Virus record (IMG/VR): IMGVR_UViG_3300008261_000170
Location: 1-22,753 of that record
Direction: 5' to 3' (one strand)
Origin: a virus
Length of the DNA stretch: 22,753 nt
Positions 1 through 22,734 of this stretch are shown piece after piece (the first letter of the stretch is position 1; every line of letters starts with the position of its first letter). Position numbers and translations under genes: made by a program. The notes below the pieces were generated by a model. It was not told the DNA's origin. It saw only the letters and a list, made by a program, of their open reading frames with translations, and searched no databases.

Positions 1-3000
1 GATATTTTTTGACGTTGTGTTGCTTTTTGGTTGTAAATATCGTTTGCCGCACTTTCAATTTCTGCATCCGTCACGGATGGTGAAATGTTGAATTTACCCT
101 CGCTATCGAACACGTTGCGAATATGCTCTGCCAGAGTTTGCTCTTGGTTGTCAACCTTCCCTGTTTTGTAGTTGTTGATTGCTTGAAAAACCACGTCCTG
201 CGGGTTCATTTCGTATTCCGTTATGTTTTCCTCCCCCTCGGTGGCAGCAGACTCTTGATCAGATTCTAGTTTTTGGTAGATACCTTCCAGTTCGCTTTCA
301 TAGTTGGCAATGCGCTTGTCAGTTCCACCCTCTTCGTACATCTTTTCCAACTCGGCAGACAAGAATTTTGCCCTGTCGGTTTCTGCTGGCATGAATTGAG
401 TTGCCGATACTGATACCTCTGGTTCGCTTTCCATTGGTTCAAGTATAGCTTGCGTTGGATCAAACATGGATCGAACGCGCAACTTTCCATTCTCTACATC
501 AATGTACTCGGCAGGATGCAATAGATCTTGCTGATGCAATTGTAACTCCAATGGTTCAACATTGCCTTGCGCTGCTAGTCTTGCTATCTCCGTGTCAATT
601 TCCATTGCCTGAGCGAATTGCTCTGGACTCTGTAATTCGGCAAGAGGATTTTCTGCTGGAAGATAGTTTTTAACTGCCAACTCATAACTGAATGGCATCT
701 TTGCCAGTGCAGTTTCATCGTACGAATTAATTCTATCCATGCGTCTGGAACGAATAACTACGTCCCTGCTATCTTGTCCCTTTCGTTTAGGCAAGGTAGT
801 GCGGTCTGGATTCGCATCGCGGGTTTCCTTTCGATAGACATTGAATAGATCGTTGATCCTATTCTTCATTTCCATTGCTATCTCAGGGTCTGGATTAAGG
901 CCAATATGCCCCTGCAAGCCTTGTTTGTGGTTATAAAGGTATTGACGCACAGAGTCCCAAAATTTGGTCATGTCTCCACCCCACAACCTCAAGTTGCGAG
1001 GACGCTTTGCTGCCCAAGCATTAGCCTTGTCGTGCATCCGTGACATCGACATCGTTGTCATTAAAAAGTTGCCTTGTTTATCAAATTGAAAACCAAATGG
1101 GATTTCGGTTCTCATTTGTGGTTGCAATGCACGATACTTTTTGTCTCGTATTGCAGCTTGGTATTCAATTTCTACAATACTTCCATCTTTTCGACCCAAG
1201 ATTTCATTAAAGAATGCAATCTTACGTTTCAGTGATGGAGCAACAAGGTCGTTTGGCAGTGCATTAATTGCAGCAACCTGTGTTGGTGAAAGGGTTCCCC
1301 GATAGTTTCCGTTCCCTGTATCTTCCAACCTCACTCCAGACGCATCTTCAGGTGCTTCATCGATAGCCTTGCGGATTGCCTCCCCACGTTTCTTTGCTCT
1401 ACGCTTAGATTCCCTTGGGGAAATAATGCGAGGGGATCCATCTGCATTCCTAGCAATGCGTGTATCAACGCTAAGAGAAGTCCCGTCAGGCATTGCCTGA
1501 AGCGGAATATCAGGCCCAAGTGAAATCACGTTGCCTAACTCATCGACCAACTGACCATTTGCAAATCGATAGTCACTAATGAACGAATCCACCTTCACGT
1601 TGGGTGGAATAACAATTTCTTGAGTCTGACCATCTGGGGTTGTCATTTTGACAACTTGTTGTTGCTCGAAAAACTCGGAATCCTTGTATCGTTGCTGCAA
1701 TGCGCGATTGGTCGAAAATACTGTCAGCGGGATTTCAGCTTCATCTTTAACTGGATCAGAGTTGTAAACCAGAGATTCATTAAGGTCACGAAGACCCCTT
1801 TGATATTGGCGCATCATTGCGAGTGCCTCTGGGTTTAGTTCTCCACCAATAACAGATGAAAACTGACCTTGGTCATCAACAATGACTCCGTAATTACGGA
1901 GTGCTTCCTTGACTCGTTTTAACGCACCATTCTTTGTTCGACTTTCAATCCAGTCCACAACAGAACGTCCCACGGAGTCTAGGTTGCCCCGTAGATTGCC
2001 TTGGATTCCACCAGAAAGACCTGCCAACTCTGACAGATACTCTTCCTTCATGTAGTTCCTCAACTGGTCTTGATTGGCAAAATTAGACAAGAATGACGCT
2101 CCACCAGATGCATCCATTGCCGCAGCATATTGCAATGCAAATTTATCCAATTCAGAGTCTGGAATTACACCTTTTTTAACAACCTCAAATGTTCCATCTG
2201 GATTAATTACTTTTTGATCGAAAAGTTCTTTTCGGATCGGCGCAATCATGTCACGAACTTCTTGGAAGTTTGATAATGCGTGTTGCATTTCGTGATTGAT
2301 AACTCGGCCTAAGTTAAGTCCATCTCGTCCCATTTGTGTCACCAAATCACCATTAATGACAACTGTTGCACCTGTTTGATTTTGCATCTTCAGGTGGTTT
2401 GGTTTTCCAGTCTGCTCTGAAATTGCAAACCCTCTTGCGGTAGAGGATCCAGCTACATCTTGTAGATATTGCTTGATAGTTTGATCGGCTAAACCAAGCA
2501 TCTCTTTCTCTGATGGAGACAAACGAGGGTTGCCAACAAGTTGTTGAACTACACTCTCCGCATCAGTTAATGTCTTTCCATACAGATTGCGGTAGAAGTC
2601 CTCCATCTGATCTGGACGCAGAACCTTTACTTGAATGTTATTCAACCCCGCTGCCGCTCCAGTGGTCTTTGCCAAGTCCATTGCATCCGTGAAGCTCAAT
2701 TGAACTTGACGCTTAATTTCCGCTTCAGTTTGCGGAGTCGATTTGTCTAATGCTTTTCGTTGTTCTGCAAAATTATCAATTTGATCTTGGATTCGACGCT
2801 CGTCATCCTTGTTTATCTGAGCAACTTTTTTTGCCTCTAGATTTTTGATCTTTAGATCAAGAGCAGATTTGATGTTGTTGACATTCGACAACTCATCGAT
2901 GCTTGACATCAATGTTGGATCAGCGGTTTTAATGAATCTCTGAATGTCCGCATCTTCATCTTTACGCAATTGAGACGGATCTGGAGTAACGATGGCATCT

Positions 3001-4487
3001 ATCTTTTCAGCAAGCCCAGTTGTTGGATCAATCAAAGCACCACCACGCTCCATTAGTCTTGCTCCACCATACCCGCCAATACCCGCTCCAACTCCAGCAC
3101 TATAGCCAAGATCACGCGCAGTCTCAATATCAGGCAATCCAAGTGCCACATTCAATACAGCACCATTAACGGCAGGTTGAATAATAGCGTTAGATTGACG
3201 AACTGCCCAGTCAGCAAACCTTGCGCGTCCTTTGCCACCCATTGCCTGTGGCCCAAAAAGTTTTTTGGTTAGTTCACCAGATGTTGGTGCGCGTCCAGCT
3301 AGTTCAAACATTCCTCGTCTTCCTTGCCCAGCTTGACTTGCTACATCACCAATAGTCGTTGCAATACCCCTTGTCATCTTGGCAGGTAGTTTTGCAGGGC
3401 CAACAATTGTATTTGTTGCAGTTTTTACGAATGTATCTGGATCTCCAACCGCATATTCACCAATCTTGCGTGAAATGCCTTGAATCTTTTCAATTCCAGA
3501 TTCAAATCCACCAGCAGTTTTTGCCACTCCCTTGGCAAGCGGTGCAACAACACCTTTTAAAGCTAATTCTCCAGCCTTGCGTGTAACCTTACCAGTGGCT
3601 TTTGCAAAGGTGTTGGTAATTCGGTTGGTTCCCGGTAATGAAAGCGGATTAGCCACATCAAAAAGCAATGCAACATTTTCATTAATTTCGTCTTTAGTTA
3701 ATCCTTGTTCCTTTACTAACTCCTCATAAGCCTTTTTAGCAAGTTCTGCCTCTTCTGGAGTTGCTCCTTGAGCCAAAGCAGCAGCAGAAGCTAATTTTTG
3801 GAGCAATGGATTTTCAGCCAACAAACGAGCGGCATGATCGGGATTGTCTTCGTATATTTTTTGAGCAAACTGCCGCATTCCTTCACGAAGCATATATTTC
3901 TCAAATCGCTCATCGCTAGATTTTCCAAGCAATTTATCAGTAATACCGCTTCCAAACATTGAAAATCTTACTGCGGCATCAGCACCCTCTTGTATTCCTT
4001 CTGCAAAACCTACTGCTCCCGATCTCCATGTGTTTTTAGCTTCTTTTAATGTCTTCTCAGCCTCTTCTGGAGATTGAGACATGGCATCAATTGGCTTTAA
4101 AATACCTTTATACAAGAATTCACCAGCACCAGTTCCAAGTTGTTTTGCGATTTCAATCCCAGTAGGAACAAATGTTGTGATAGCCTCGGATGCTTTTTGA
4201 TTGATATCTTTTTTGTCTTCAGCATCAAACAGAATTCTCTCTTGCTCACGGGTCAATTCTTGACCTGATTGCTTCATTTGTTGAAGCGTACCTGCGTCTT
4301 TAATTTTAGTAGGACTATTATCTAGTTCATCTTCAGGGGGACTCCATTGATCTGGAGTATTTTCAACTAATTCAGCTTTAGGAGGACTCCATTGATTTGG
4401 AATATTTTTGACCGATTCATCCTCAGGAGGTTTCGATTGCTGTAGAACATTACTGTCTAATTCATCTTCAGGTGGTTGCCATGCCAT
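1..4487 (-). CDS. Giant internal-virion / polyvalent protein with HExxH motif (3' end off window)
   Basis: A reading frame stays open from ATG at 4487 to the left edge, giving at least 1495 codons with no stop, so the C-terminus is missing. The start follows the previous stop by one base (TAA-T-ATG). Residues 1-60 hold four 15-residue repeats with a W-x-PP-E-D-E-L core. A Gly-rich hydrophobic stretch lies near 455-472 and a charged, coiled-coil-like segment near 540-582. HEMQH is at 732-736 in the context RVINHEMQHALS, followed by an acidic helix-like segment with E815, E816 and E820. That layout suits a zincin-type peptidase, where HExxH binds zinc and a downstream Glu completes the site. 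Size, composition and last-in-operon position resemble giant podovirus ejection proteins such as T7 gp16, or large polyvalent proteins. No transglycosylase motif was recognised. Virion location and peptidase activity are inferred. Confidence 0.8.
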   Translation of the reverse strand, partial: MAWQPPEDELDSNVLQQSKPPEDESVKNIPNQWSPPKAELVENTPDQWSPPEDELDNSPTKIKDAGTLQQMKQSGQELTREQERILFDAEDKKDINQKASEAITTFVPTGIEIAKQLGTGAGEFLYKGILKPIDAMSQSPEEAEKTLKEAKNTWRSGAVGFAEGIQEGADAAVRFSMFGSGITDKLLGKSSDERFEKYMLREGMRQFAQKIYEDNPDHAARLLAENPLLQKLASAAALAQGATPEEAELAKKAYEELVKEQGLTKDEINENVALLFDVANPLSLPGTNRITNTFAKATGKVTRKAGELALKGVVAPLAKGVAKTAGGFESGIEKIQGISRKIGEYAVGDPDTFVKTATNTIVGPAKLPAKMTRGIATTIGDVASQAGQGRRGMFELAGRAPTSGELTKKLFGPQAMGGKGRARFADWAVRQSNAIIQPAVNGAVLNVALGLPDIETARDLGYSAGVGAGIGGYGGARLMERGGALIDPTTGLAEKIDAIVTPDPSQLRKDEDADIQRFIKTADPTLMSSIDELSNVNNIKSALDLKIKNLEAKKVAQINKDDERRIQDQIDNFAEQRKALDKSTPQTEAEIKRQVQLSFTDAMDLAKTTGAAAGLNNIQVKVLRPDQMEDFYRNLYGKTLTDAESVVQQLVGNPRLSPSEKEMLGLADQTIKQYLQDVAGSSTARGFAISEQTGKPNHLKMQNQTGATVVINGDLVTQMGRDGLNLGRVINHEMQHALSNFQEVRDMIAPIRKELFDQKVINPDGTFEVVKKGVIPDSELDKFALQYAAAMDASGGASFLSNFANQDQLRNYMKEEYLSELAGLSGGIQGNLRGNLDSVGRSVVDWIESRTKNGALKRVKEALRNYGVIVDDQGQFSSVIGGELNPEALAMMRQYQRGLRDLNESLVYNSDPVKDEAEIPLTVFSTNRALQQRYKDSEFFEQQQVVKMTTPDGQTQEIVIPPNVKVDSFISDYRFANGQLVDELGNVISLGPDIPLQAMPDGTSLSVDTRIARNADGSPRIISPRESKRRAKKRGEAIRKAIDEAPEDASGVRLEDTGNGNYRGTLSPTQVAAINALPNDLVAPSLKRKIAFFNEILGRKDGSIVEIEYQAAIRDKKYRALQPQMRTEIPFGFQFDKQGNFLMTTMSMSRMHDKANAWAAKRPRNLRLWGGDMTKFWDSVRQYLYNHKQGLQGHIGLNPDPEIAMEMKNRINDLFNVYRKETRDANPDRTTLPKRKGQDSRDVVIRSRRMDRINSYDETALAKMPFSYELAVKNYLPAENPLAELQSPEQFAQAMEIDTEIARLAAQGNVEPLELQLHQQDLLHPAEYIDVENGKLRVRSMFDPTQAILEPMESEPEVSVSATQFMPAETDRAKFLSAELEKMYEEGGTDKRIANYESELEGIYQKLESDQESAATEGEENITEYEMNPQDVVFQAINNYKTGKVDNQEQTLAEHIRNVFDSEGKFNISPSVTDAEIESAANDIYNQKATQRQKI
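4326..4475 (-). repeat. Four 45-bp spaced repeats encoding PPEDEL-type units
   Basis: A 15-base core, ttcatcttcagg plus ngg on the plus strand with small changes, recurs at 4326, 4371, 4416 and 4461. The spacing is exactly 45 bases. In the protein this is a 15-residue period beginning PPEDEL, PPEDES, PPKAEL and PPEDEL. The copies have diverged at synonymous and non-synonymous sites, so this is an old in-frame duplication and not an assembly artefact. Confidence 0.85.
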
Positions 4488-4488
4488 A

Positions 4489-6084
4489 TTATTTTTTAGT
4501 TCCAGTAACCCCGTTAAAAATATATTTTTGTCCAGACTTTAATTTTTTCCACTCTTCTTGCGATTTAATTTCTACAAGATTTTCTTGCGATTGAATGGGT
4601 TGAAAGTTTTGTGGCGTTTCAATAGATTGAATTTGTTCTTTAATTCCTTCTTTTGCCCTTGATACAATATTTTCAATCTCGTCAATGTTTTGTTTAAACA
4701 AAAAGAAACTTAGACTTGGATCAATTGACCCAAGATTAGATTCCAACAAACTTAATTCTCTTTCACTAATCGCACCCAATGCACCTCCTGTTGGAGATGA
4801 CGCTTTCATGTCTGCAAGTTTTTTGAATGCAATATTACCTTGTAACGCCTTGATTAGTTTTTCAACGTCCGAAGCATCGCTTCCGGGGATATAACTTAGC
4901 CAATTTGCTAAACCTCCAACTCCGGGAGAAATGCCCTTATAAATGCTTCTGATCTGATTAATCGTGCGAAGCATCGTATCAATTTCACCAAGAGGTTCTT
5001 TTAATGCTTTGACCTGCTGTTTAATTTCACCCTTGGGGATCAAATCGTAAGTTACATCACCAACTTGTTTTTTAGCACTTTTAACTGCTAAATTAGATGG
5101 GATTTGTTCTTGTGTTTGTTTTTTAACTGGAGGTTCAACCACATAATAAGTTTGACCATCAATAATCTGCTGCTTAACGGGCTTTACTTCATAATTTGGA
5201 AGTTGCTTTGCAAGCATTTGATTTGCCATTTCAGCGTCTTCCCAACTTTCATATGGAGCAATCAAATCGTTAGGTTCATATAATGGAGCAGCAGGACGAA
5301 CCTCTGGAGTTGGTGTAACAGGGATTGCAGTACGAACTTCAGGTTCAGGCACAGGTGCTGGAGGAACCATAACTCCTCCAGTTGCGGCTTGAATATTTCT
5401 AAGGGGAGGATTTGTAACCACTGCAATTTGCTCTTGTGAGATAACTGGTTCAAATGGAGCAGTTGCAATTGCTGATGGTTGTTGAAATGAAATATCAGAT
5501 AAAGCCCCTCCTCTTTTAAACCTACTCAAATCTGGCATTGGAAACTCTTCATCAACGGATGACAGTGGTGCTAATATCTGAGTTGGATCATCAACTGATG
5601 TTGGGCCTTGAGGCAAATCAGAATTATCAGAATTACCAACTGGAGTTATTGGATCTTTGAAAAACCCTTTTCTTTTTAGGTTAACAGGAACCTTATCTCC
5701 ACCACGCTCCGTTGTTAGAGATTTAATGTTTGCAAGTCTTGCTTCATTATAATCTTTTTCAAACTTTAGTTCTTCTGCGGTCTTTTCTGCTCTGATTCTA
5801 GCAAGCGTCTTGTCTCTATCAAATTTAAGTGCTTCCTTATCTGCTTCTTTAGCCTCATCATCCTTCGCTTTAATAGCAGCAAAAACAGGTTCAGCTAACG
5901 CTTGGAACCCTTTTGCAGCACCCATGCTGACTAACTCCTGCTGCGCGGACGGAACCTCGTATTTCGGCATTGGAGTAAACTGAACGCTTACTCCAACGTC
6001 GAGAGGTTTCAACGCAGAAAGAGGACTCGCCCCAAGACTTGCGGTCTGTGGAGTGTACGAATAGCCACCAGTGGGTAGTGCCAT
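4489..6084 (-). CDS. Putative internal virion protein, 531 aa
   Basis: The function is not recognised with certainty. The protein has a Gly/Pro/Ala-rich N-terminus and a charged, coiled-coil-like segment rich in Lys, Glu and Ala at about 65-125. A Pro/Val-rich linker with PEPEVR and PTPEVRP motifs lies near 225-270. A C-terminal helical region at about 415-450 contains a segment of the form F-x-x-L-A-D-M-K followed by PTGGALG-x-IS-x-x-E-L. That type of segment is often seen in phage structural proteins. The last 25 residues (EEWKKLKSGQKYIFNGVTG) look like a small beta module. The start follows the previous stop by four bases and no good ribosome site is visible, so coupling is likely. Its place just before the giant HExxH protein suggests an ejection-complex role; this is inference. 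Confidence 0.8.
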   Translation of the reverse strand: MALPTGGYSYTPQTASLGASPLSALKPLDVGVSVQFTPMPKYEVPSAQQELVSMGAAKGFQALAEPVFAAIKAKDDEAKEADKEALKFDRDKTLARIRAEKTAEELKFEKDYNEARLANIKSLTTERGGDKVPVNLKRKGFFKDPITPVGNSDNSDLPQGPTSVDDPTQILAPLSSVDEEFPMPDLSRFKRGGALSDISFQQPSAIATAPFEPVISQEQIAVVTNPPLRNIQAATGGVMVPPAPVPEPEVRTAIPVTPTPEVRPAAPLYEPNDLIAPYESWEDAEMANQMLAKQLPNYEVKPVKQQIIDGQTYYVVEPPVKKQTQEQIPSNLAVKSAKKQVGDVTYDLIPKGEIKQQVKALKEPLGEIDTMLRTINQIRSIYKGISPGVGGLANWLSYIPGSDASDVEKLIKALQGNIAFKKLADMKASSPTGGALGAISERELSLLESNLGSIDPSLSFFLFKQNIDEIENIVSRAKEGIKEQIQSIETPQNFQPIQSQENLVEIKSQEEWKKLKSGQKYIFNGVTGTKK

Positions 6085-6088
6085 AAGG

Positions 6089-6601
6089 TTAAGCCCCGCC
6101 GAATGTTAGTCCAGATGCTGAAGGAACTGCGAATTGATTGACCCGCTGGTTGCTACCACCTGCACCTTGGTTTGCCGCAGTTGTCATTGCAGGATTGACC
6201 ATCGTTGGGTTCAGCATATTTGCTCCAGTAGATGGAAGGGTTCCAGATGCCGCGCCAAGGTTTGCCATTGCGCCTTGACGTGCTGCATTGACATCGTAGC
6301 CAGTTCCCGTTGCTGCCGCTCCTGCACCTTGTGCCGCAAGCAAGCTACGTTGACGTGCAGCGGCATCCTCTGCTGCCTTTAGTGCATTCATACCACTAAT
6401 AGACTGCTGGGCGCGTTGTGACCCCTCACGCGCAAGCATGGAGGCTTGCTGATTTTGCGCTTCAATCATTGCGTTACGTTGAGAAAGATCCGTTTCGCGG
6501 CGCGCGCGAGAAGACTCCTCTCGATTTTGACGCATTTGCTCAAGCAACACTGGCGTGTTGTCTGGTGGTGGTGGTGGTGTAGGCATTGATCCTCCTCCCA
6601 T
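6089..6601 (-). CDS. Small Ala/Gln/Gly-rich virion protein, 170 aa
   Basis: A specific family is not recognised. The protein starts MGGGSMPTPPPPP, with a run of five prolines encoded by a ggt-type simple repeat on the plus strand. A long helical stretch rich in Arg, Gln, Ala and Glu follows at about 20-95, with an Ala/Gly-rich C-terminal half. This composition is typical of small internal-virion proteins such as the T7 gp14 type. The start is well supported by AAGGAG seven bases upstream. It is one of only a few genes here with a clear ribosome site and lies after the longest gap in the window. It probably belongs with the next two genes in an ejection cassette, judged by composition and position only. 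Confidence 0.75.
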   Translation of the reverse strand: MGGGSMPTPPPPPDNTPVLLEQMRQNREESSRARRETDLSQRNAMIEAQNQQASMLAREGSQRAQQSISGMNALKAAEDAAARQRSLLAAQGAGAAATGTGYDVNAARQGAMANLGAASGTLPSTGANMLNPTMVNPAMTTAANQGAGGSNQRVNQFAVPSASGLTFGGA

Positions 6602-6608
6602 AATATTA

Positions 6609-6614
6609 CTCCTT
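6609..6614 (-). promoter_or_regulatory. Shine-Dalgarno AAGGAG for the 170-aa gene
   Basis: The minus strand reads AAGGAG, then seven bases, then ATG at 6601. It lies in the 64-base gap after the cysteine-cluster gene, so this gene probably gets independent ribosome entry. No terminator hairpin or convincing promoter boxes were seen in the gap. Confidence 0.75.
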
Positions 6615-6665
6615 AATTTTAATGTTAATTGTTAGGTTGGTTGTTAGTGAAATACATTTAATATT

Positions 6666-6950
6666 TCAAATTGTCAATTTCTTTCTCGCCTCTTTGCACA
6701 AATCAGATCCGGGCTGGAATTGTCTGCAAGAATTCGGCCTGTCTGCATATACCATGCAACACACCTTCTCCCCAACTTTTCCATCCAAAGCAATGCATCT
6801 GGAATCGGTGGTTTTCATTAGCGGGTAGTCTTCCCTTTGCATTTCTTTCGGGATACCAGTCGCATCAGATCGATCTCTTCGCAGCACAGGCCAAGACCAT
6901 TTGAAGCAACAACAAGCACCGCACTTTTTGCAGTCGTATTCATTATCCAT
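6666..6950 (-). CDS. CxxCxxCC cysteine-cluster protein (YkgJ/UPF0153-like), 94 aa
   Basis: A small protein with ten cysteines. C7-x2-C10-x2-C13-C14 (plus C15) is the family signature. C52, C64-C65, C75 and C85 follow in the usual context, with YADRPNSCRQFQPGS-x-x-C near the end. This matches the zinc- or iron-chelating CxxCxxCC family (PF03692), whose biochemical role is poorly defined. Start: ATG at 6950 overlaps the TAA stop of the preceding virion gene (TAATG). An in-frame ATG at 6977 would add MGSPCYPCL, but it sits deep in the upstream gene and the shorter form begins right at the family motif. It may be an accessory gene inside the virion cassette, with metal-centre handling suggested only by the cysteines. 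Confidence 0.88.
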   Translation of the reverse strand: MDNEYDCKKCGACCCFKWSWPVLRRDRSDATGIPKEMQREDYPLMKTTDSRCIALDGKVGEKVCCMVYADRPNSCRQFQPGSDLCKEARKKLTI

Positions 6951-7528
6951 TAAGCACGGGTAGCACGGGGAACCCATCCCATTCCAGCATTAAATGATCC
7001 AGTTGTTCCGGGTGCGGTATGCTTTAGCATTTCTGATTGTGATCCAAATCCACCAACCCCACCAGCAGCACTGCCATAAGCACCAGCAGCAGATGTAACA
7101 AGAGACTGCATTGCATTAGCCCAACCCTGAGAAACTTTTTCCTCTCCAGTTTCTGGTACTGAATATGCCCCCATCGATGAAAATCCAAGACTTCCGCTTC
7201 CATCACCACTTCCACGTTGCATGGCAGACCACGCTGAAGCGGAATCAGACTGCGATTTTGCTGCGCGATCATACGGGGATGCTGCCGCTTGACCAACTTT
7301 TCCAAATGCGTCTTTTATAGCATCACCCATTTGGTTCTGTTGTTGCTTTTGGGGATTGTAATCTGGACGGGGTTGCGCTCCAGTTCCTAACTTGCCAGAA
7401 AATAGATTTTGCACTGTGTCACCAGATCGACCAATTGCATTTGATGCACTACCAAGAAGTCCACCGAATTGGCTATTAGCCACTGGTGTTGATGCTCCTG
7501 TTGCGTTTGCTGATTGTGATCCACCCAT
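6950..7528 (-). CDS. Gly/Ser/Ala-rich putative internal virion protein, 192 aa
   Basis: No named family is recognised. The protein is low in complexity: a Ser/Ala/Gly-rich N-terminus beginning MGGSQSANA, a Gln/Asn/Lys segment (NPQKQQQNQMGDAIKDAFGKV) around 60-80, and a Gly/Ala-rich C-terminal half (AAGAYGSAAGGVGGFGS). It could insert in or span membranes as podovirus ejection proteins do, but no clear transmembrane helix is visible. It starts four bases after the PP-loop gene stop (TAA-AATT-ATG), and its own stop overlaps the start of the cysteine-cluster gene. Assignment to the ejection cassette is by context. Confidence 0.72.
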   Translation of the reverse strand: MGGSQSANATGASTPVANSQFGGLLGSASNAIGRSGDTVQNLFSGKLGTGAQPRPDYNPQKQQQNQMGDAIKDAFGKVGQAAASPYDRAAKSQSDSASAWSAMQRGSGDGSGSLGFSSMGAYSVPETGEEKVSQGWANAMQSLVTSAAGAYGSAAGGVGGFGSQSEMLKHTAPGTTGSFNAGMGWVPRATRA

Positions 7529-7532
7529 AATT

Positions 7533-8375
7533 TTATTCTTCTTTGTTGTTCCAAGTTACTGGTTTAAATCCTAAGTCTGGTATTACGATGTCTTCGTAAG
7601 GTGCTAGATGTGAAATGTTAGTAATCTTTGCTTTTAGCTTTGGGCAATTGACGTGTGGGCCTTGATGCCGATCAACGCAGTTCAAACAGACAGGATAGAA
7701 GTCAGCATTGAGTGACTTGTCTGGATTATTCATCCATCCATGCTTTCCCTTTACATATCGTGTTGGGTCTGGCTGGACATTGTTAGTCTCAAGGTATTCA
7801 AATACATCCTCATCAGTCCAATCTTTTAGCAAGTAAAGCGAGACAGGATTTCCATCGACGTGACGAATATCTTGTGACAACGAAAGTTGCCCCTTCATTA
7901 GATCAGTGTCTCCACCTTTAGTTCCAATCCAAACTGCATTCCACGGAAAATTAAATGTACCAGTTGGACGCATTAGGAAATCATCCACACCACACATGAA
8001 AGATTCGTTTGCTTTTGGACGCTCAGTTCCCAAAGACAAAACAATGGAATTTTTACCCCACTGGAAATAGTGAAGCAAATCAAAGCGAACATCTCCCGTA
8101 TGAACATCAGGCCCATCTGCAAGCGTGTGTTTGAATGCGGGATATTCATACATCGTCAATTGCCAATCCTTGATTAGTTTGTCTGAATATGCATATCTTT
8201 CGCGGAATTTAGGCTGCCTAAATTGAACCACAGGGACATCAATTCCACACTTAAATTTTAGAAAGTGCAGAAGGACAGTTGAATCCTTGCCTCCAGACCA
8301 AAATATGACCGCATTGGGCCACTGTTTGTTCCAACGAACTGCTTTATCGATTGTTTTATGTATTAGGTTTTTCAT
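7533..8375 (-). CDS. PP-loop ATPase of the PAPS reductase/CysH family, 280 aa
   Basis: SGGKDS at 27-32 is the PP-loop that binds ATP or PAPS in the adenine-nucleotide alpha-hydrolase superfamily. The segment IGTKGGDTDL at 150-159 and LKDWTDEDVFEYLETNNV at 183-200 match the second half of PAPS-reductase domains, including the usual DWT-x-x-DV. The protein lacks the C-terminal ECGIH active-site motif of classical CysH. Instead it has C230-x2-C233, H237, H241 and C244, a possible metal or Fe-S site. The true reaction is therefore open: sulfonucleotide reduction, or sulfur transfer to DNA or tRNA, are both possible. The ATG at 8375 overlaps the upstream TAA stop (TAATG), and a longer in-frame extension would run into the upstream gene. 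It sits between two internal-virion-like genes. Confidence 0.88.
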   Translation of the reverse strand: MKNLIHKTIDKAVRWNKQWPNAVIFWSGGKDSTVLLHFLKFKCGIDVPVVQFRQPKFRERYAYSDKLIKDWQLTMYEYPAFKHTLADGPDVHTGDVRFDLLHYFQWGKNSIVLSLGTERPKANESFMCGVDDFLMRPTGTFNFPWNAVWIGTKGGDTDLMKGQLSLSQDIRHVDGNPVSLYLLKDWTDEDVFEYLETNNVQPDPTRYVKGKHGWMNNPDKSLNADFYPVCLNCVDRHQGPHVNCPKLKAKITNISHLAPYEDIVIPDLGFKPVTWNNKEE

Positions 8376-9190
8376 TAAACTATAATTGCCGCACCAAGGA
8401 TTGCTCCACCAGCAGCACCACCAGCAGTAAGCCATGATCCAGTTGCTGCATTTTTGCTTTGAGCATTTTGAGCCATTACTTGGTTCATCATATTGTTATA
8501 ATTTTGAGTGTCAGCAACATTGGCAGTGTGTGCAGATTGGATATTACCCATCGAACGATTAATTGCGTCTTGTGCTGTTTGACCAAGACCCTGCGCTCCA
8601 GATAGGACACCGCGTTGCCATTCTTGAAGACTCTGTTGGTTTTGTCCTTTTGCTGCTTGTTGTCCAGCAACCAATGAGCCGGGGTCAATGCCTCCCTGCA
8701 TTTGAGTTGCGTCTAGATACTTTTGACGCAGTGCCATATCCTCTAGCGCAATCTGTCGGCCTTGTGCCGTGGATTGATCAAACATGGCAGACCTGCCAAT
8801 TGTGGATCCCATGTCGAGTCCAGTCCCCATCATTTGAGCGAGTCCTTTTGTTTTTGCCCACTGACCTAGCTTTTGTTGCCAACTCTCAGGAGAGGTTAGA
8901 TTCTGTACAGTCTCACTCATGCCAGAACGCATCTTGGCTAGGGTGGGATCTACGTTTTCTTCAAATTGTCTAGCGCGATTTGCGTTTTCAATTCCTAGTT
9001 CAAATGCCTGTTGAGATACCTCGCTTGGGTTGAACTCTTGGTAAATTGGCTTTAGCTGGGTAGCCATCTCAAATAGTCTGCCTTGAGAAGCAAGACCACC
9101 ATACATCCCTTTGTTAGCTTCCGATGCCATCATCATGTTAAGATCAGGACGAGGACGTTGAATTTGAGGAGTATATGTTTTTCCACCCAT
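8375..9190 (-). CDS. Putative internal virion protein (T7 gp14-like character), 271 aa
   Basis: The protein begins MGGKTYTPQIQRPRPDLN and is mostly helical, rich in Gln, Met, Ala and Gly. It ends in a short hydrophobic Gly-zipper tail (LTAGGAAGGAILGAAIIV), which could associate with a membrane. This composition and its position three genes after the nozzle resemble podovirus ejection proteins of the T7 gp14 type, usually about 200 residues. No sequence identity was shown. It starts eight bases after the previous stop with no clear ribosome site, and its stop overlaps the start of the PP-loop gene. Confidence 0.78.
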   Translation of the reverse strand: MGGKTYTPQIQRPRPDLNMMMASEANKGMYGGLASQGRLFEMATQLKPIYQEFNPSEVSQQAFELGIENANRARQFEENVDPTLAKMRSGMSETVQNLTSPESWQQKLGQWAKTKGLAQMMGTGLDMGSTIGRSAMFDQSTAQGRQIALEDMALRQKYLDATQMQGGIDPGSLVAGQQAAKGQNQQSLQEWQRGVLSGAQGLGQTAQDAINRSMGNIQSAHTANVADTQNYNNMMNQVMAQNAQSKNAATGSWLTAGGAAGGAILGAAIIV

Positions 9191-9198
9191 AAGTTTAA

Positions 9199-9579
9199 TT
9201 AAGCTAAAGAATAAACTTCTCTTTTAAGAGGAGTCAACCCTAATTTTTCTATTATTTCGTTTGTAAAATTGGTTCGTTCATTGGCTAACGGAACTCCGAT
9301 GAACCCCGGTGAGTTTGAAATCTGGCAGTGTGCCTTCCAATCACTCATGGTTTGGATAACATCTTTTGGTCTAGTGTATTTAGGATGATATGCGGGATAG
9401 ATTGTTGGGATAAAAACATGATCTGAGTATCCAAATAGCACACCATCACGATAATGTGCATAAACATTAATATTAGGATGCTCAATAATTTTATGGTCAA
9501 AATCTTCAGCAAAATCAACAAGTTCCAAGAATTCATTGGTTCCTTTTTGAGCAAGTTTATATTCAATTTGTGGCCTCAT
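9199..9579 (-). CDS. Small virion-region protein, possibly gp13/GNAT-like, 126 aa
   Basis: Not confidently recognised. It is a compact, globular-looking protein with a mixed alpha/beta pattern, several aromatic residues (DGVLFGYSDHVFIPTIYP) and a terminal segment NEIIEKLGLTPLKREVY. The order of strands and the final helix-strand are reminiscent of short GNAT acetyltransferase-fold proteins that some T7-like phages carry in the gp13 position between nozzle and internal core genes. No acetyl-CoA loop (Q/R-x-x-G-x-G/A) is evident, so an enzymatic role is unsupported. It starts five bases after the previous stop. Confidence 0.7.
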   Translation of the reverse strand: MRPQIEYKLAQKGTNEFLELVDFAEDFDHKIIEHPNINVYAHYRDGVLFGYSDHVFIPTIYPAYHPKYTRPKDVIQTMSDWKAHCQISNSPGFIGVPLANERTNFTNEIIEKLGLTPLKREVYSLA

Positions 9580-9584
9580 ATGTA

Positions 9585-9839
9585 TTAATTAAATCCAACC
9601 AGAACATCGTCTGGGTTGGCTATGGTTTGTGTATAGTTAGCAAACCTGTCAGCTTGTGCTTTCAGGATATTGTTGCGAGTAGAGTTACTGCCACACACTG
9701 CACATGGCAAGCAATTATTTTGACCAGTCGTGAATGGGATTGATGAGTAAATTGGAACTACGGGATCGTCACCAAATGGGGATATGTACTTGTTTGGAAA
9801 GTTAGTGACCTCTTTGGTTGCTGTGATAATCGATGGCAT
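9585..9839 (-). CDS. Small protein with CxxCxxC motif, 84 aa
   Basis: An unrecognised small protein starting MPSIITATKEVTNFP, with a central CLPCAVC cysteine motif (C-x2-C-x2-C) and a polar C-terminal helix (NNILKAQADRFANYTQTI). ATG at 9839 lies one base after the nozzle gene stop (TAA-T-ATG), the same junction used elsewhere in this operon. A longer frame upstream would overlap the nozzle gene by 89 bases and is unlikely. The cysteines may bind a metal; nothing else indicates function. Confidence 0.68.
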   Translation of the reverse strand: MPSIITATKEVTNFPNKYISPFGDDPVVPIYSSIPFTTGQNNCLPCAVCGSNSTRNNILKAQADRFANYTQTIANPDDVLVGFN

Positions 9840-9840
9840 A

Positions 9841-11979
9841 TTAGCAGGGATTCTGTGCTTTAAATTGCTGTGCAGCGGCAGTTGCTGATTGAAGTGCAAG
9901 CACTCCAGCTTCCTCCTGCGCGTGTTCAAAACTAATGTAAGACAAGAACGTAGCAGATGCCGTAGCAGAAATTGATTTCGATGGGTTTACATCACAAGTC
10001 AATGTTGCGGTCTTGAATACTTTTGCGCTATATGAGTTGTCATTTGGCGATTGTTGCTCGTATGGATTAGGCAACAGGTCGATTAACAATGTTTCACCAG
10101 TCTGTGCCACAACGCAGGATTGCGTCTCGTCTCCCTGCGGAACACCTGTGGATTTCTCCTGCCAAGGATCCATAAAGAGTCGCACAATCTCTACTCCAAA
10201 TTCACCGCACCACTCGATTAACAAAGAAAACGCTTTGTCTACATCGTCGGTGAGATACGATTCGCAGGTTGAAACAAGTGAATTCCGTTGCGCCGATTCA
10301 GTGGTCAACCTTCGATACTGCGAGTTAAGGAAACCTAGATTCTGAATCTCTGACTCATACGGAGTGTTCTGCCATTGGTAGTCATCCGTGACCGCAAGAA
10401 TGCGCTTTTGAAGGATTGGGTTATATGCTCCCTTGCTGCCCCTGTAGGACACTTTTAGATCAACTGTGCCACCAATCTGCGTTGATTCGATTTCGGCATA
10501 CACAAACTTCTTGAGATCCATTTCGTCACCAAGCAATGGAGTTTCAAACTGCGAGTAAATCCGATTGTAAAGTGTGGTCGTAGTTTTGTCTGGATTGATC
10601 TGCAAGTATGAATCGATTCGTTCTGGTTGGAATGACTCCCAAAGGTGATTAAAAGATCCATCGTTCGTTGCAGCGTAATCGACGCTAAAGTGGAAGCACC
10701 GAGATTGCCCGTCAATGACACCTGTAGTCCATTCTACTGGACGTGTTCCTGTCCATACCCCTGCCCATGCAGGGAATCTGTTTTCTCCACTGCTCCATTC
10801 TGAGGCAGTGGCATAATCCAACACCATTGTGTCTGAATTTAATGTTTGAAGGTATGGAATAGAGTAAAGTAAATAGTTCTCAAAACCAATAGCGCAAATT
10901 TTTGTCGGGTCTGCTGCCATGAGTCGTTTTGCCCTAGCCATTTCAACGTCTTTAAATAAAACTTGAGATGATAGATATGCCGTTGCTGCAATATCGCCAG
11001 TCATCAGACCCCCTTGAGCGTACCACCACATCTGACCCGCTTGGAAAGCAATTGATTTTCCAGCCACACACCCAACAGTTGGGTAAAGGGTGGATTGGAA
11101 GTTTTCGGTTGTGACCCATTGTTCTCGATCAAGAACTCCAGACTTCAACTGAAAGGTAGAGCGATCAGTAAATACAATAAGACGTGTTGATGTATCTTGA
11201 CCAACATAACTTGCCATTCCAGTGACAGGGCGAGAAAAACTAAAATCTCCACGGGATGTTCCTGTGGTACGTTCTTTGAAAGAGGTTGGATCACCTAGAT
11301 CGGAGGCTAGTACGATGTTCTTATCAGCGATCCACATTCTGTTGCCAGAGTATGCCATCCAGTATCCAACGGGAATTGTGGAGAGTTGCGTTCCAACCTT
11401 GTCTGCACCATCCCAAAATGATGGATATGAAATGCCATCTTGTATCATCACAATTCGATGGGCAGGAGTAGCAAACTCGTCCGTTCCAGTCGATAGGTTT
11501 GCGGAGCGTGTAGCAAGCGCAAACACGAATTGATCCACGTCTGGTGACATCAAGATGTTTTTAAGTCGATAATCCTCCCAGTTGCTTGGCTGAACCAGCG
11601 GGAATGGCGAGTAGTAGACGTTGCCATTCACGGCAAAAACCATGTAGGACAACTCGCTTGCAACGACACCACTTCCATCCACGTCGAAGATTTTAGCTGG
11701 AGTGGTCGATACTATTCCGTCACGCTCGATTGTAAGTGCCGATTCCTTTTGTTTGTTGGAAGAAAAAAGAACGCCACCTTGGAAATTACCAGCGGGAAGG
11801 GAAAGTTGCATTTTATGCCCCGGCCTCGTTTGAACGATGCCACCACGGACATTAACATTTACACCCCACTTGCATTGGTTTTCTGGCAATGACCACGGGT
11901 TGCGAACGGAATTAACCCCTTGCACCCACCCAGTTGAGACTTTTTTTAGTCTTCCTGCTGTAATGTTTTCACTTTTCAT
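9841..11979 (-). CDS. Tail nozzle / tail tubular protein B-like (stabilisation protein), 712 aa
   Basis: The N-terminal segment, with NPWSLPENQCKWGVNVNV followed by RGGIVQTRPG, is a hallmark-like opening of phage nozzle or tail stabilisation proteins, in which each tail subunit forms a beta-propeller. The rest is beta-rich with repeated W and Y strands (YWMAYSGNRMWIADKNIVLAS, GQMWWYAQGGLMTG, KICAIGFENYLLYSIPY), as expected for propeller blades. T7 gp12 is 794 residues, so length fits. The C-terminal 170 residues diverge and end in an Ala/Gln-rich helix. It follows the adaptor gene by two bases (TAG-TA-ATG), matching the adaptor-nozzle order of short-tailed phages. The call is from motif character and order, without alignment. 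Confidence 0.72.
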   Translation of the reverse strand: MKSENITAGRLKKVSTGWVQGVNSVRNPWSLPENQCKWGVNVNVRGGIVQTRPGHKMQLSLPAGNFQGGVLFSSNKQKESALTIERDGIVSTTPAKIFDVDGSGVVASELSYMVFAVNGNVYYSPFPLVQPSNWEDYRLKNILMSPDVDQFVFALATRSANLSTGTDEFATPAHRIVMIQDGISYPSFWDGADKVGTQLSTIPVGYWMAYSGNRMWIADKNIVLASDLGDPTSFKERTTGTSRGDFSFSRPVTGMASYVGQDTSTRLIVFTDRSTFQLKSGVLDREQWVTTENFQSTLYPTVGCVAGKSIAFQAGQMWWYAQGGLMTGDIAATAYLSSQVLFKDVEMARAKRLMAADPTKICAIGFENYLLYSIPYLQTLNSDTMVLDYATASEWSSGENRFPAWAGVWTGTRPVEWTTGVIDGQSRCFHFSVDYAATNDGSFNHLWESFQPERIDSYLQINPDKTTTTLYNRIYSQFETPLLGDEMDLKKFVYAEIESTQIGGTVDLKVSYRGSKGAYNPILQKRILAVTDDYQWQNTPYESEIQNLGFLNSQYRRLTTESAQRNSLVSTCESYLTDDVDKAFSLLIEWCGEFGVEIVRLFMDPWQEKSTGVPQGDETQSCVVAQTGETLLIDLLPNPYEQQSPNDNSYSAKVFKTATLTCDVNPSKSISATASATFLSYISFEHAQEEAGVLALQSATAAAQQFKAQNPC

Positions 11980-19927: not shown

Positions 19928-19933
19928 CTCCTT
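19928..19933 (-). promoter_or_regulatory. Shine-Dalgarno AAGGAG for the tail collar gene
   Basis: The minus strand reads TAAAGGAG, then eight bases, then ATG at 19919. The site abuts and overlaps the TAA stop of the collagen-like gene, so terminating ribosomes could restart here. Confidence 0.75.
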
Positions 19934-22080
19934 TATACTACTGTCCATACTGATCCTGCGGGTACTGTCACAATCACTCCTGCGTTGACTGTAATCGGCC
20001 CTGCGGTCATTGCGTTTTTTGTTAATGGGACAGAATAACTTGATGTCACGAATTGGTCGTTCAAGAAGAACACGGCATCCGTTCCTGCCCCAGTTGCTCC
20101 TGTGCTAGAACCAGTTGCTCCAGTCAAACCTGTCGCTCCATCCAAACCCGTGGCTCCTTGAGTACCAATGCCCGTAGCACCTGTGGCCCCAGTTGGGCCT
20201 CCAGATGGGCCAGTTGCACCCTGAATGCCATTTAGTGACACAATAACAATGACAACTCCGCTTGCTGGTGCTGTCGATAGCGTGATTGTGTATGGGCTTC
20301 CAGCAGTGATTGTATAGTTGTTTGGATCTTGCGAGATGCCATCAAATGCAACAAAGAACGCAGTTGAAAGGGTGGAAATCGCACCAGTTATATTGTAAAT
20401 AAGGGTGGTTCCATCAGAGGTATATGCCCAACGATCTCCACCAGCGGGGGAAATGGGGCCAGTAGCACCAGTCGCTCCTTCTCCAGTGGCCCCAGTCGCT
20501 CCGTCTAAACCGATTGGCCCAGTGGCCCCAGTGCTACCGATACCCGTAGCACCAGCAGGGCCGGGTGCGCCTAAAAGCGAAACGCTCCAGCTTGAAAATG
20601 TTCCAGAACCAATAATGGAGGTAATATTAGCAACCAATGCTCCAGTCAATGGGTTATAACTAACGATGCTGCCAGTCATCTGGTCAGTCGCGCTATTTGC
20701 AATAATGACAGATTGACCAATGCTTAAAGCAAGCCCAGTATCAACAGTTAGACTTTGCGTTCCTGTTGCAATTGTTAGTGAAGTGGTTGAACTGGTTGTA
20801 TATTTGTCTCCAGACAAACCCGTGGCCCCAGTACTGCCATCTAAGCCCGTGGCCCCAGTGCTACCCTCTAGGCCCGTGGCCCCAGTACTTCCCTCCACAC
20901 CTGTGGCCCCAGTACTTCCGATACCCGTGGCCCCAGTGCTACCCTCTAGGCCCGTGGCCCCAGTGCTACCGATACCCGTGGCCCCTGTCTCTCCAGTGGC
21001 CCCAGTAGCCCCGCCCGGTGTTCCTTGTGGCCCAGTGCTGCCAGTCGCACCTAATCCACCATCACCAGTAATTCCAATCATCCAATCAGCAAAGTTTCCG
21101 CTGCCTTGGACTTTGTCTACTTGCAACTTGACCCAAGAATCGTTTACTTCAATAACAATTCCCTCAACCCAATCCCACGGATATGCTGAATTAGCAACTG
21201 CACGAAGTCGAGATCCGTATGTCCACCCAATAGGAGCGGTTGGGCTAAAGTAAAATTGCTTGTATCCAAGCGTGATATCATGTGCTGTAAAACTTTGACG
21301 AACAATAACTGGGGAAATACCAGACGCGCCAGTGCTTCCGTCATCACCAGTGCTTCCCTTCAAGCCAGTGCTTCCCTGCAAACCCGTGGCCCCAGTCAAA
21401 CCTGTTGCACCAAAACCAGTTGCGCCCTGCAATCCCGTGGCTCCGTCAAGGCCCGTGGCTCCTGTTAAACCAGTAGCACCCAATCCAGTGCTTCCCTGCA
21501 AACCCGTTGCCCCAGTACCCCCCACATCTCCAGTGGATCCCTGCAAACCCGTGGCCCCAGTGCTGCCCACAACGCCACTAGCACCAGTGGCTCCAGCTTT
21601 GCTAGAAAGCTCAATGACAGTTAATTCTGATCCAGATGGAACGGGTGTTGAAAATGTTAATACTCTCGGAAGACTTGTGGAAATCGTGTAGTTAATTGGA
21701 TCTTGTACTACACCATCAATATATGCCAAGTAAGCATTACGATCAGGTTGCCATGCTCCAGTTAATGTAAAATTAGTTTGACCTGCTCCTGTAAATCCCC
21801 AACGCAAAAACGATCCATAACCATCGAGGCTATTTGCAAAGACACGAAGCAAGTAACAAAGCAAACCTTCACCTTCTTCGCGGGGAATTTGATCTACTTC
21901 AGCAGTGTTATTTGGGTCACAGGGGATATCCCAAACAACACGTCCATTAATTATAGTCTTATCGATTGTGCCATAAAGTGCATAGACAAGATTGCCAATC
22001 AATGAAGGCACAGATTCTGGGGACACTGACGGGTAAGGAACGTCTGGGCAACAAGTGGATGAAGAGTTAGAGCAAGACAT
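19933..22080 (-). CDS. Collagen-like tail fibre, 715 aa
   Basis: Four collagen-like Gly-x-x blocks (mostly GAT, GST and GLD-type triplets) lie at about 163-256, 339-423, 504-545 and 618-669. Between them sit beta domains. Two are of the type [16 protein letters not shown] (about 90-160 and 550-615), one is a [14 protein letters not shown] type and one a [14 protein letters not shown] type. The N-terminus is Cys-rich ([18 protein letters not shown]) and the C-terminal tip, about 670-715, ends in PAGSVWTVV. Collagen-like phage fibres form triple helices that space out trimeric domains. AAAGGA nine bases upstream supports the start. The protein probably forms a long side fibre. A damaged paralogue sits directly upstream. 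Confidence 0.88.
20813..20993 (-). repeat. 27-bp collagen repeats (GSTGATGLE-type units)
   Basis: The plus strand shows repeated cccgtggccccagt units separated by short variants (ctgccatctaag, gctaccctctagg, acttccgatac), with a basic 27-base or 9-residue period. These are the densest repeats of the second collagen block and are likely to be unstable and hard to assemble. Confidence 0.85.
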
Positions 22081-22089
22081 GAGGTATTA

Positions 22090-22095
22090 TCCTTT
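22090..22095 (-). promoter_or_regulatory. Shine-Dalgarno AAAGGA for the collagen-like fibre
   Basis: The minus strand reads AAAGGA, then nine bases, then ATG at 22080. It lies in the 62-base gap after the broken fibre gene. Confidence 0.65.
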
Positions 22096-22142
22096 AAAAT
22101 AAATTGTGAATATTGTTAATGCAAGCATTATTTTTGTAATAA

Positions 22143-22707
22143 TTATACTATTGTCCAAACTGATCCGCTTGGAATTGTTACAGCAACTCCAACATCAATT
22201 GTGACTGGGCCAAATGTACCTGCATTTTGAAGTGTTGGTATTGTGTAAGATGTGTTTACTGTCTGACCATTTAAAAAGAAAATAGCGTCTGTTCCTGCGC
22301 CAGTTGCTCCCCCAGCAGAACCTTATTGAATAATCATTTGGGTCTTGAAAGACACCATCAAATGCAACTAGGAACGCAGTTGACATTGTTGATATTGCTC
22401 CACTTATATTGTAGATAAGGGTGCTTCCGTCTGATGTATATGCCCACCTATCTCCACCAGCAGGGGAAACTGGGCCTGTGGCCCCAGTGCTTCCTTGCGT
22501 TCCAGCAACGCCAGTGGCCCCAGTGGCCCCAGTGGCCCCATCCATCCCATTGATTCCGCTGGCTCCAGTGGCTCCAACTGGCCCATTTGCTGGGCCTGTG
22601 GCTCCAGTGGCCCCAACATTAGGCCAATTGCAATCCATTGAATTTAATGGAGCGCAACCGCAATTTGTAGAACTTTGAGGACTTGGAATCCAGTTAAATT
22701 GAGCCAT
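22143..22707 (-). pseudogene. Frameshifted short collagen-like fibre gene
   Basis: From ATG at 22707 the frame reads [20 protein letters not shown], a collagen block (GATGATG and similar), then [11 protein letters not shown] and [15 protein letters not shown]. After this it becomes nonsense and stops at 22195. The +1 frame from about 22318 reads [19 protein letters not shown] and continues to a proper tip ending PSGSVWTIV and a TAA at 22143. The intact downstream fibre has the same two parts with about 65 residues between them. So this copy has lost roughly 195 bases and shifted frame, or the assembly has. There is no clear ribosome site before ATG; an in-frame TTG at 22725 is an alternative start. 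If translated, only a truncated protein would be made. Confidence 0.78.
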
Positions 22708-22734
22708 AGGAAAGAATTTAAACAATTACATTAA

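Follow-up and report, generated by a model that had tools for sequence, protein, structure and literature searches.

Two genes of this phage DNA, one encoding a PP-loop protein (PP) and the other a CxxCxxCC protein (CX), are found together across a large group of uncultured tailed phages, and sequence comparisons support the view that, within a late structural cassette, they work as a single functional unit. In close relatives, the slot that holds them between the neighbouring genes V1 and V3 is occupied by a YcaO-TfuA pair instead. Our preferred reading, which we hold tentatively and with somewhat less than even confidence, is that PP-CX and YcaO-TfuA are interchangeable late modules that modify a neighbouring structural protein, with PP-CX acting as the counterpart of YcaO-TfuA.

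The window, by which we mean the whole stretch of DNA analysed, is an IMG/VR virus record of 22,753 bases. Its genes are densely packed in one operon on one strand, and the order of transcription is the tail 'nozzle'-like gene, two small genes, V1, PP, V2, CX, V3, V4 and V5. The features relevant here are as follows.

9841..11979, minus strand: tail 'nozzle'-like protein; relatives match 'internal virion protein' and 'virion structural protein' PHROGs
9199..9579, minus strand: small protein 5' of V1, kept regardless of slot content
8375..9190, minus strand: V1, Cys-free, Ala/Gln-rich, ejection-type, with a bare hydrophobic Gly/Ala C-terminus; predicted to be the substrate of the pair or a partner
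8373..8377, minus strand: TAATG stop/start overlap between V1 and PP, one shared base
7533..8375, minus strand: PP, 280 aa, SGGKDS PP-loop, APS/PAPS-reductase (adenine nucleotide alpha hydrolase) fold
6950..7528, minus strand: V2, MGG-type, virion-like, between PP and CX; its stop overlaps the CX start
6948..6952, minus strand: TAATG stop/start overlap between V2 and CX, one shared base
6666..6950, minus strand: CX, 94 aa, CxxCxxCC protein (YkgJ/FliB-type motif)
6089..6601, minus strand: V3, MGG-type, virion-like, right-hand border of the slot
4489..6084, minus strand: V4, virion-like, matching PHROG 2534 'released from the phage upon host infection' (E 7.6e-9)
3..4487, minus strand: V5, giant, virion-like, cut by the window end; relatives reach ~3,160 aa or more

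The initial annotation had the coordinates and reading frames of PP and CX right, and it also correctly placed their starts (8375 and 6950) inside the stop codons of the genes upstream, with V2 as a third gene between them. Its description of the neighbours as virion-like stands for V4 by virtue of the PHROG match; V1, V2 and V3 have no annotated homologue, and we therefore infer their virion role from position, between the tail/internal-virion-protein-like gene and V4. The gene 5' of the nozzle gene matches tail and virion proteins among the PHROGs. Most junctions of the operon measure between -11 and 31 nt, with 64 nt behind CX. Because the other junctions are nearly as tight, the two TAATG junctions mean little by themselves, and they were discounted as stand-alone evidence. 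Among relatives, the stop codon of V1 and the start codon of PP share bases at 126 of 170 loci (106 of the TAATG type and 20 ATGA), and the conservation of this overlap, down to about 30% PP identity, exceeds chance.

Several other features of the operon were observed. V1 to V5, 2,659 aa in the window (3-9190), contain no cysteine at all; other operon proteins have some, and the V1-V5 counterparts are Cys-free in most relatives inspected. A small protein between nozzle and V1 (window 9585-9838; homologue L508:11135-11380), present with any slot content, carries a conserved CLPCxxCG-type motif and is possibly metal-binding. The C-terminus of V2 and small MGG proteins of relatives (e.g. L470:10337-10723) have a recurrent GMGWVPRA-type motif and V3-type proteins a GxxFGG ending, both of which look like shared assembly signals. 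At 19933-22725, the window encodes GATG/GSTG collagen-like repeat proteins, possibly tail fibres.

Viral contigs supplied the relatives of PP and CX, and removal of duplicates left 193 distinct PP loci. CX lies downstream on the same strand in 170 of these and is adjacent but inverted in 3; 15 are cut by a contig end and 5 are without CX. CX is thus beside PP or one gene off in 173 of 178 assessable distinct loci, which bears out over deep divergence the earlier proposal of an apparently undescribed functional unit whose genes co-occur between virion-type genes. Chance or artefact was rejected as the source of the pairing, given the many independent contigs from different metagenomes. The strict alternation with virion genes that had been described is not supported, as just 50 of 170 loci, the window's lineage included, have an intervening gene between PP and CX; in the other 120 the two are adjacent, often overlapping by 13 nt. 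This makes V2 an insertion specific to its lineage. The order V1-PP-CX is kept even where identity falls to about 30% for PP and about 60% for CX (L131, L133, L276, L277, L346). Independent occurrence, which the initial annotation had named as an argument against a unit, is partly borne out: in one clade PP sits at the usual place and CX is missing from the entire records, which reach 66 kb, and in four fragments CX adjoins RuvC-TerS-TerL, with the tail cassette lying outside these contigs and PP thus not assessable there. Two lone CX genes directly 5' of RuvC-TerS-TerL (L130:5867-6196, L132:5998-6297) mark a second CX position, apparently in the same phage group. In three loci (L131:2403-3447, L133:5235-6345, L277:7156-8309) PP is longer than elsewhere and shares considerably more than 100 nt with the CX frame, a single stretch thus encoding both proteins, and for L131 and L133 a programmed frameshift between the two genes may be considered on the strength of this large overlap.

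The content of the V1-V3 slot was sampled with the nozzle-like gene, a bait independent of both PP and CX. The sample comprises the 80 best matches to one query, and so leans to that part of the tree; 36 of these loci have at least 5.5 kb of sequence downstream. Within these 36 bait loci from the best 80 matches, PP and CX occur together in 15, PP alone in 8, neither in 13 and CX alone in none. Both genes are missing from the whole records of all 13 'neither' loci, and the module is therefore dispensable. The slot is empty in 11 of these 13 and holds YcaO and TfuA in the other two (L477, L508); no third cargo type was present among the 36 bait loci, 25 of which, all drawn from the best 80 matches, have an occupied slot.

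In L508 the alternative pair matches YcaO (PF02624, E 1.7e-60) and TfuA (PF07812, E 1.7e-28). Among NCBIfam models the slot YcaO and TfuA come closest to those for McrA-glycine thioamidation, below the equivalog cut-offs. As with PP, YcaO of L508 starts in the V1 stop through a TAATG, and TfuA overlaps YcaO. A scan for phage YcaO genes gave 31 loci, mostly with TfuA directly 3' and a V1-type gene directly 5', and neither PP nor CX was found in any of the 31. Many flanks of YcaO phages are almost the same as in PP-CX phages, with identities of flanking genes that reach 99%; for example, L535 shares with L406/L412 amino-acid identities of 96% (nozzle), 98% (V1), 97% (V4) and 96% (V5), and each of L544, L548, L552, L541, L534, L538 and L545 has its own close PP-CX partner. 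Between L544 and L282, 5.9 kb align at 92% nucleotide identity, ending in the 3' part of V1; beyond it the two differ completely, and they match again from the start of V3. In a FastTree backbone phylogeny built from 102 nozzle proteins, some of them on long branches, the YcaO and PP+CX states require at least 11 changes. The near-identical flanks, gene-exact borders and number of changes together show that two non-homologous pairs swap repeatedly at one spot.

The C-terminal end of V1 varies with slot content. In most YcaO phages, on several backbones, V1 ends in a conserved tail of about 75 aa, CW(V/I/L)ARxxFG..RWxxFR.., and two such tails match the NCBIfam CFI-box-CTERM model weakly (E 0.0014 and 0.0037, below cut-off). 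A CFI-box-like tail was seen in no locus with PP. The association has exceptions, as L530-L532 have YcaO and no V1 tail, and the V1 at L505:2850-3866, on a short contig, has the tail and no visible YcaO-TfuA. The V1 of PP phages terminates in a bare hydrophobic Gly/Ala stretch: its last 12 residues include a charged one in 4 of 167 PP phages versus 8 of 9 empty-slot phages (Fisher p 2e-10, an overstated value, the sequences being related). The V1 end is the simplest candidate for a target of both pairs. The covariation may, however, be hitchhiking, since the swap border lies in the V1 3' end, and a shared target sequence does not imply shared chemistry, since V1 of PP phages is without the Cys-containing tail.

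YcaO-TfuA, an ATP-dependent pair associated with McrA thioglycine and with thioamitides, is known to thioamidate McrA (PMC5589413), and its known substrates are peptide backbones (PMC5589413, PMC13063428). A slot that alternates such a pair with an Fe-S PP-loop/CxxCxxCC pair points to late protein modification. In our proposal, PP-CX would be a two-gene enzyme module in the V1-V3 slot of an ejection-type cassette, a slot that takes PP-CX, YcaO-TfuA or nothing, and its expression would be late, with translation coupled to V1. PP-CX would then be the non-homologous functional counterpart of YcaO-TfuA, and its target a structural protein of the phage, with the C-terminal end of V1 as the likeliest candidate. 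Within this reading, sulfur chemistry on the neighbouring structural protein would be likely. The more specific version, in which PP-CX installs a thioamide, a thiocarboxylate or an equivalent group on the C-terminal end of the ejected protein, interchangeably with YcaO-TfuA, we regard as possible and hold with low confidence; if true, a whole phage group would reserve one slot for the sulfur modification of its injection apparatus.

The main rival explanation treats the slot as a general landing site for late 'morons', where genes behind V1 are well expressed and harmless, and PP-CX and YcaO-TfuA are unrelated cargos with no common target. Empty slots do occur, and the evident dispensability and mobility of the module agree with a landing site. 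Against this stand the presence of only two cargo types in the 25 occupied slots of the 36 bait loci from the best 80 matches, the fact that both cargos are ATP-using enzyme systems related to sulfur chemistry, and the covariation of the V1 C-terminus with the cargo. We consider an indifferent landing site unlikely, though well worth keeping in mind.

Interchangeable protein modification remains the preferred reading, and its enzymatic side rests on the two proteins themselves. CX matches the Pfam CxxCxxCC family (PF03692; E 7.5e-8, 33.4 bits, cut-off 23), and the Cx2Cx2CC motif and eight cysteines are invariant in the CX family; no solved structural relative of CX was found. PP matches PAPS_reduct (PF01507; E 6.5e-6, 26.7 bits, cut-off 22.5), mainly over its N-terminal part, and its SGGxDS-type PP-loop core is kept in nearly all of the 170 relatives. 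An AF2 model from 53 sequences (mean pLDDT 93, pTM 0.89) replaced one from 13, which was of low quality around the cysteines in particular; the solved structures that resemble the later model most are CysD, CysH, APS reductase and TtuA, a [4Fe-4S] tRNA thiolase, with TM of about 0.35-0.5. Each of the 170 complete PP proteins has the four cysteines C128, C230, C233 and C244. When PP is aligned jointly with APS reductase and DndC, C128 and C230/C233 coincide with iron-sulfur ligands of these enzymes, and C244, in a CPK motif, is specific to PP; of the CC + CxxC ligands of the APS type, one Cys of the CC and the CxxC are thus invariant in PP, which adds a fourth of its own. We propose that PP would activate the target with ATP and carry a [4Fe-4S] cluster on C128, C230, C233 and C244 for sulfur transfer or redox chemistry, with CX as its metal-cluster partner. 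The invariant cysteines would agree with the earlier suggestion of a pair that assembles a metal cluster and makes use of it. We infer rather than observe the late expression, the cluster type, the ATP-dependent sulfur chemistry, the substrate and any virion role of PP-CX.

A different use of the same fold would be auxiliary sulfur metabolism, with PP reducing APS or PAPS for the supply of sulfite and cysteine and CX as a redox or cluster partner. The APS-reductase fold and the Fe-S cysteines agree with this, the literature commonly counts phage cysH among auxiliary metabolic genes, and at the place of the APS-reductase ECGLH motif a YC(G/N)LR or similar sequence is kept in 65 of 170 PP proteins, the deep members. 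In the other 105, the window included (Leu, in DLGFKP), this C-terminal catalytic Cys is Leu or Gln, although the four cluster cysteines stay. The Cys state maps to a single change on a PP tree built without those columns, which is read as a loss because APS reductases carry the Cys. With it gone, PP of the window clade is unlikely to be a plain sulfate-assimilation gene. The same loss weakens both a plain cysH auxiliary gene and the action on host sulfur that the initial annotation had entertained, in this clade at least. The gene moreover sits in a structural-gene slot, the Cys-free V1-V5 proteins (2,659 aa) point to no special cysteine demand there, and the YcaO-TfuA exchange is left unexplained. 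Ordinary sulfate assimilation is a poor fit for the window clade and improbable as a general account, although it may fit the deeper members, whose Cys-keeping branches may carry out ordinary sulfonucleotide reduction.

PP and CX might also be packaged and injected with the ejection proteins, with early effects on metabolites or on the nucleic acid of host or phage. Their position within an ejection-type cassette and the coupling to V1 would suit this; the PP and CX proteins, however, show no sign of packaging, and modification of a neighbour would account just as well for the exchange with YcaO-TfuA, and we give early action after injection little credence. A reduced DndC-type system for sulfur modification of nucleic acid is very improbable and was rejected: although cysteine positions are common to PP and DndC and deep members give weak DndC-model matches, the family score is far too low (L133 alone, 14.2 bits against a cut-off of 290.4), PADLOC gave no match for the window PP, no DndD, DndE or Ssp partner was seen next to the pair and no DndD or DndE in the cassette, and the exchange partner YcaO acts on peptides.

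No cultured relative came to light. PP, nozzle and YcaO relatives are absent from the 50,697 phage records of INPHARED, where CX occurs in only two Acinetobacter 'phage' records that are apparently bacterial host DNA. A search of one genome per bacterial or archaeal species yielded just two CX relatives, each in the order V1-PP-CX. One PP-CX relative (L277) comes from a Chthoniobacter MAG, on a contig of 76 kb (L277, L452-L455), where it appears to be integrated beside bacterial SMC and thymidylate kinase genes; it is therefore probably a prophage of Verrucomicrobiota. Two observations concern the terminase region of relatives: at L418:13005-15890, in a relative of the window, the terminase large subunit has an intein with a homing endonuclease (PF05203, PF05204), and at L428:9458-10078 a Cys-rich protein with two CxxC motifs adjoins TerL, with a similar N-terminus and position in L426 and L418.

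Searches of the open-licence literature found no description of such a module, nothing relevant on YcaO, the CFI-box or CxxCxxCC proteins in phages, and no report of thioamidation in virions. Protein thioamidation is known in a couple of cases only, McrA and the ribosomal protein uL16 (PMC13063428). A slot that can be filled by YcaO-TfuA, known for thioamidation, or by PP-CX, an unrelated pair of an Fe-S PP-loop and a CxxCxxCC protein, offers a genetic handle on both, and since near-identical phages differ mainly in the cassette, the modified protein should be traceable by direct comparison. The CxxCxxCC family gains a conserved partner, and caution is due with phage 'PAPS reductases' catalogued among sulfur auxiliary genes, which may instead modify proteins.

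No system is known to match the pair together with its slot and exchange; the component families are known, and the novelty lies in the module and not in its parts. CysH and APS reductase, including phage cysH (PHROG 424), share with PP the PP-loop fold and, for APS reductase, three of the four iron-sulfur ligand positions. Deep PP members resemble APS/PAPS reductases in their C-terminal catalytic-type Cys, where the window clade has Leu, and unlike CysH, PP is linked to a slot among structural genes and in most cases to CX. The PP family has a member in BFVD/UniProt, A0A6J7XPH8 from an uncultured Caudovirales phage, which is annotated only as a PAPS reductase and matches the PP model over its full length (TM 0.88/0.93, 29% identity). 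DndC and TtuA/TtcA share with PP an Fe-S PP-loop sulfur-transfer logic without the reductase Cys; C146, C280 and C283 of DndC, cluster ligands according to PMC12193691, align with C128, C230 and C233 of PP, which is about half as long. The FliB/YkgJ family (PF03692) has the CxxCxxCC motif of CX, and FliB, whose related motif CX4CX3CC binds [4Fe-4S], methylates flagellin (PMC8598068) and so modifies a structural filament protein; CX, at 94 aa, is without the remainder of FliB and shows no sign of SAM use. YcaO-TfuA, finally, has no sequence relation to PP-CX (the window PP and CX match neither YcaO nor TfuA domain models), and its phages mostly have the CFI-box-like V1 tail that PP phages are without; yet it is likewise a two-gene ATP-using pair, in the same slot behind V1 and with the same stop/start overlap logic.
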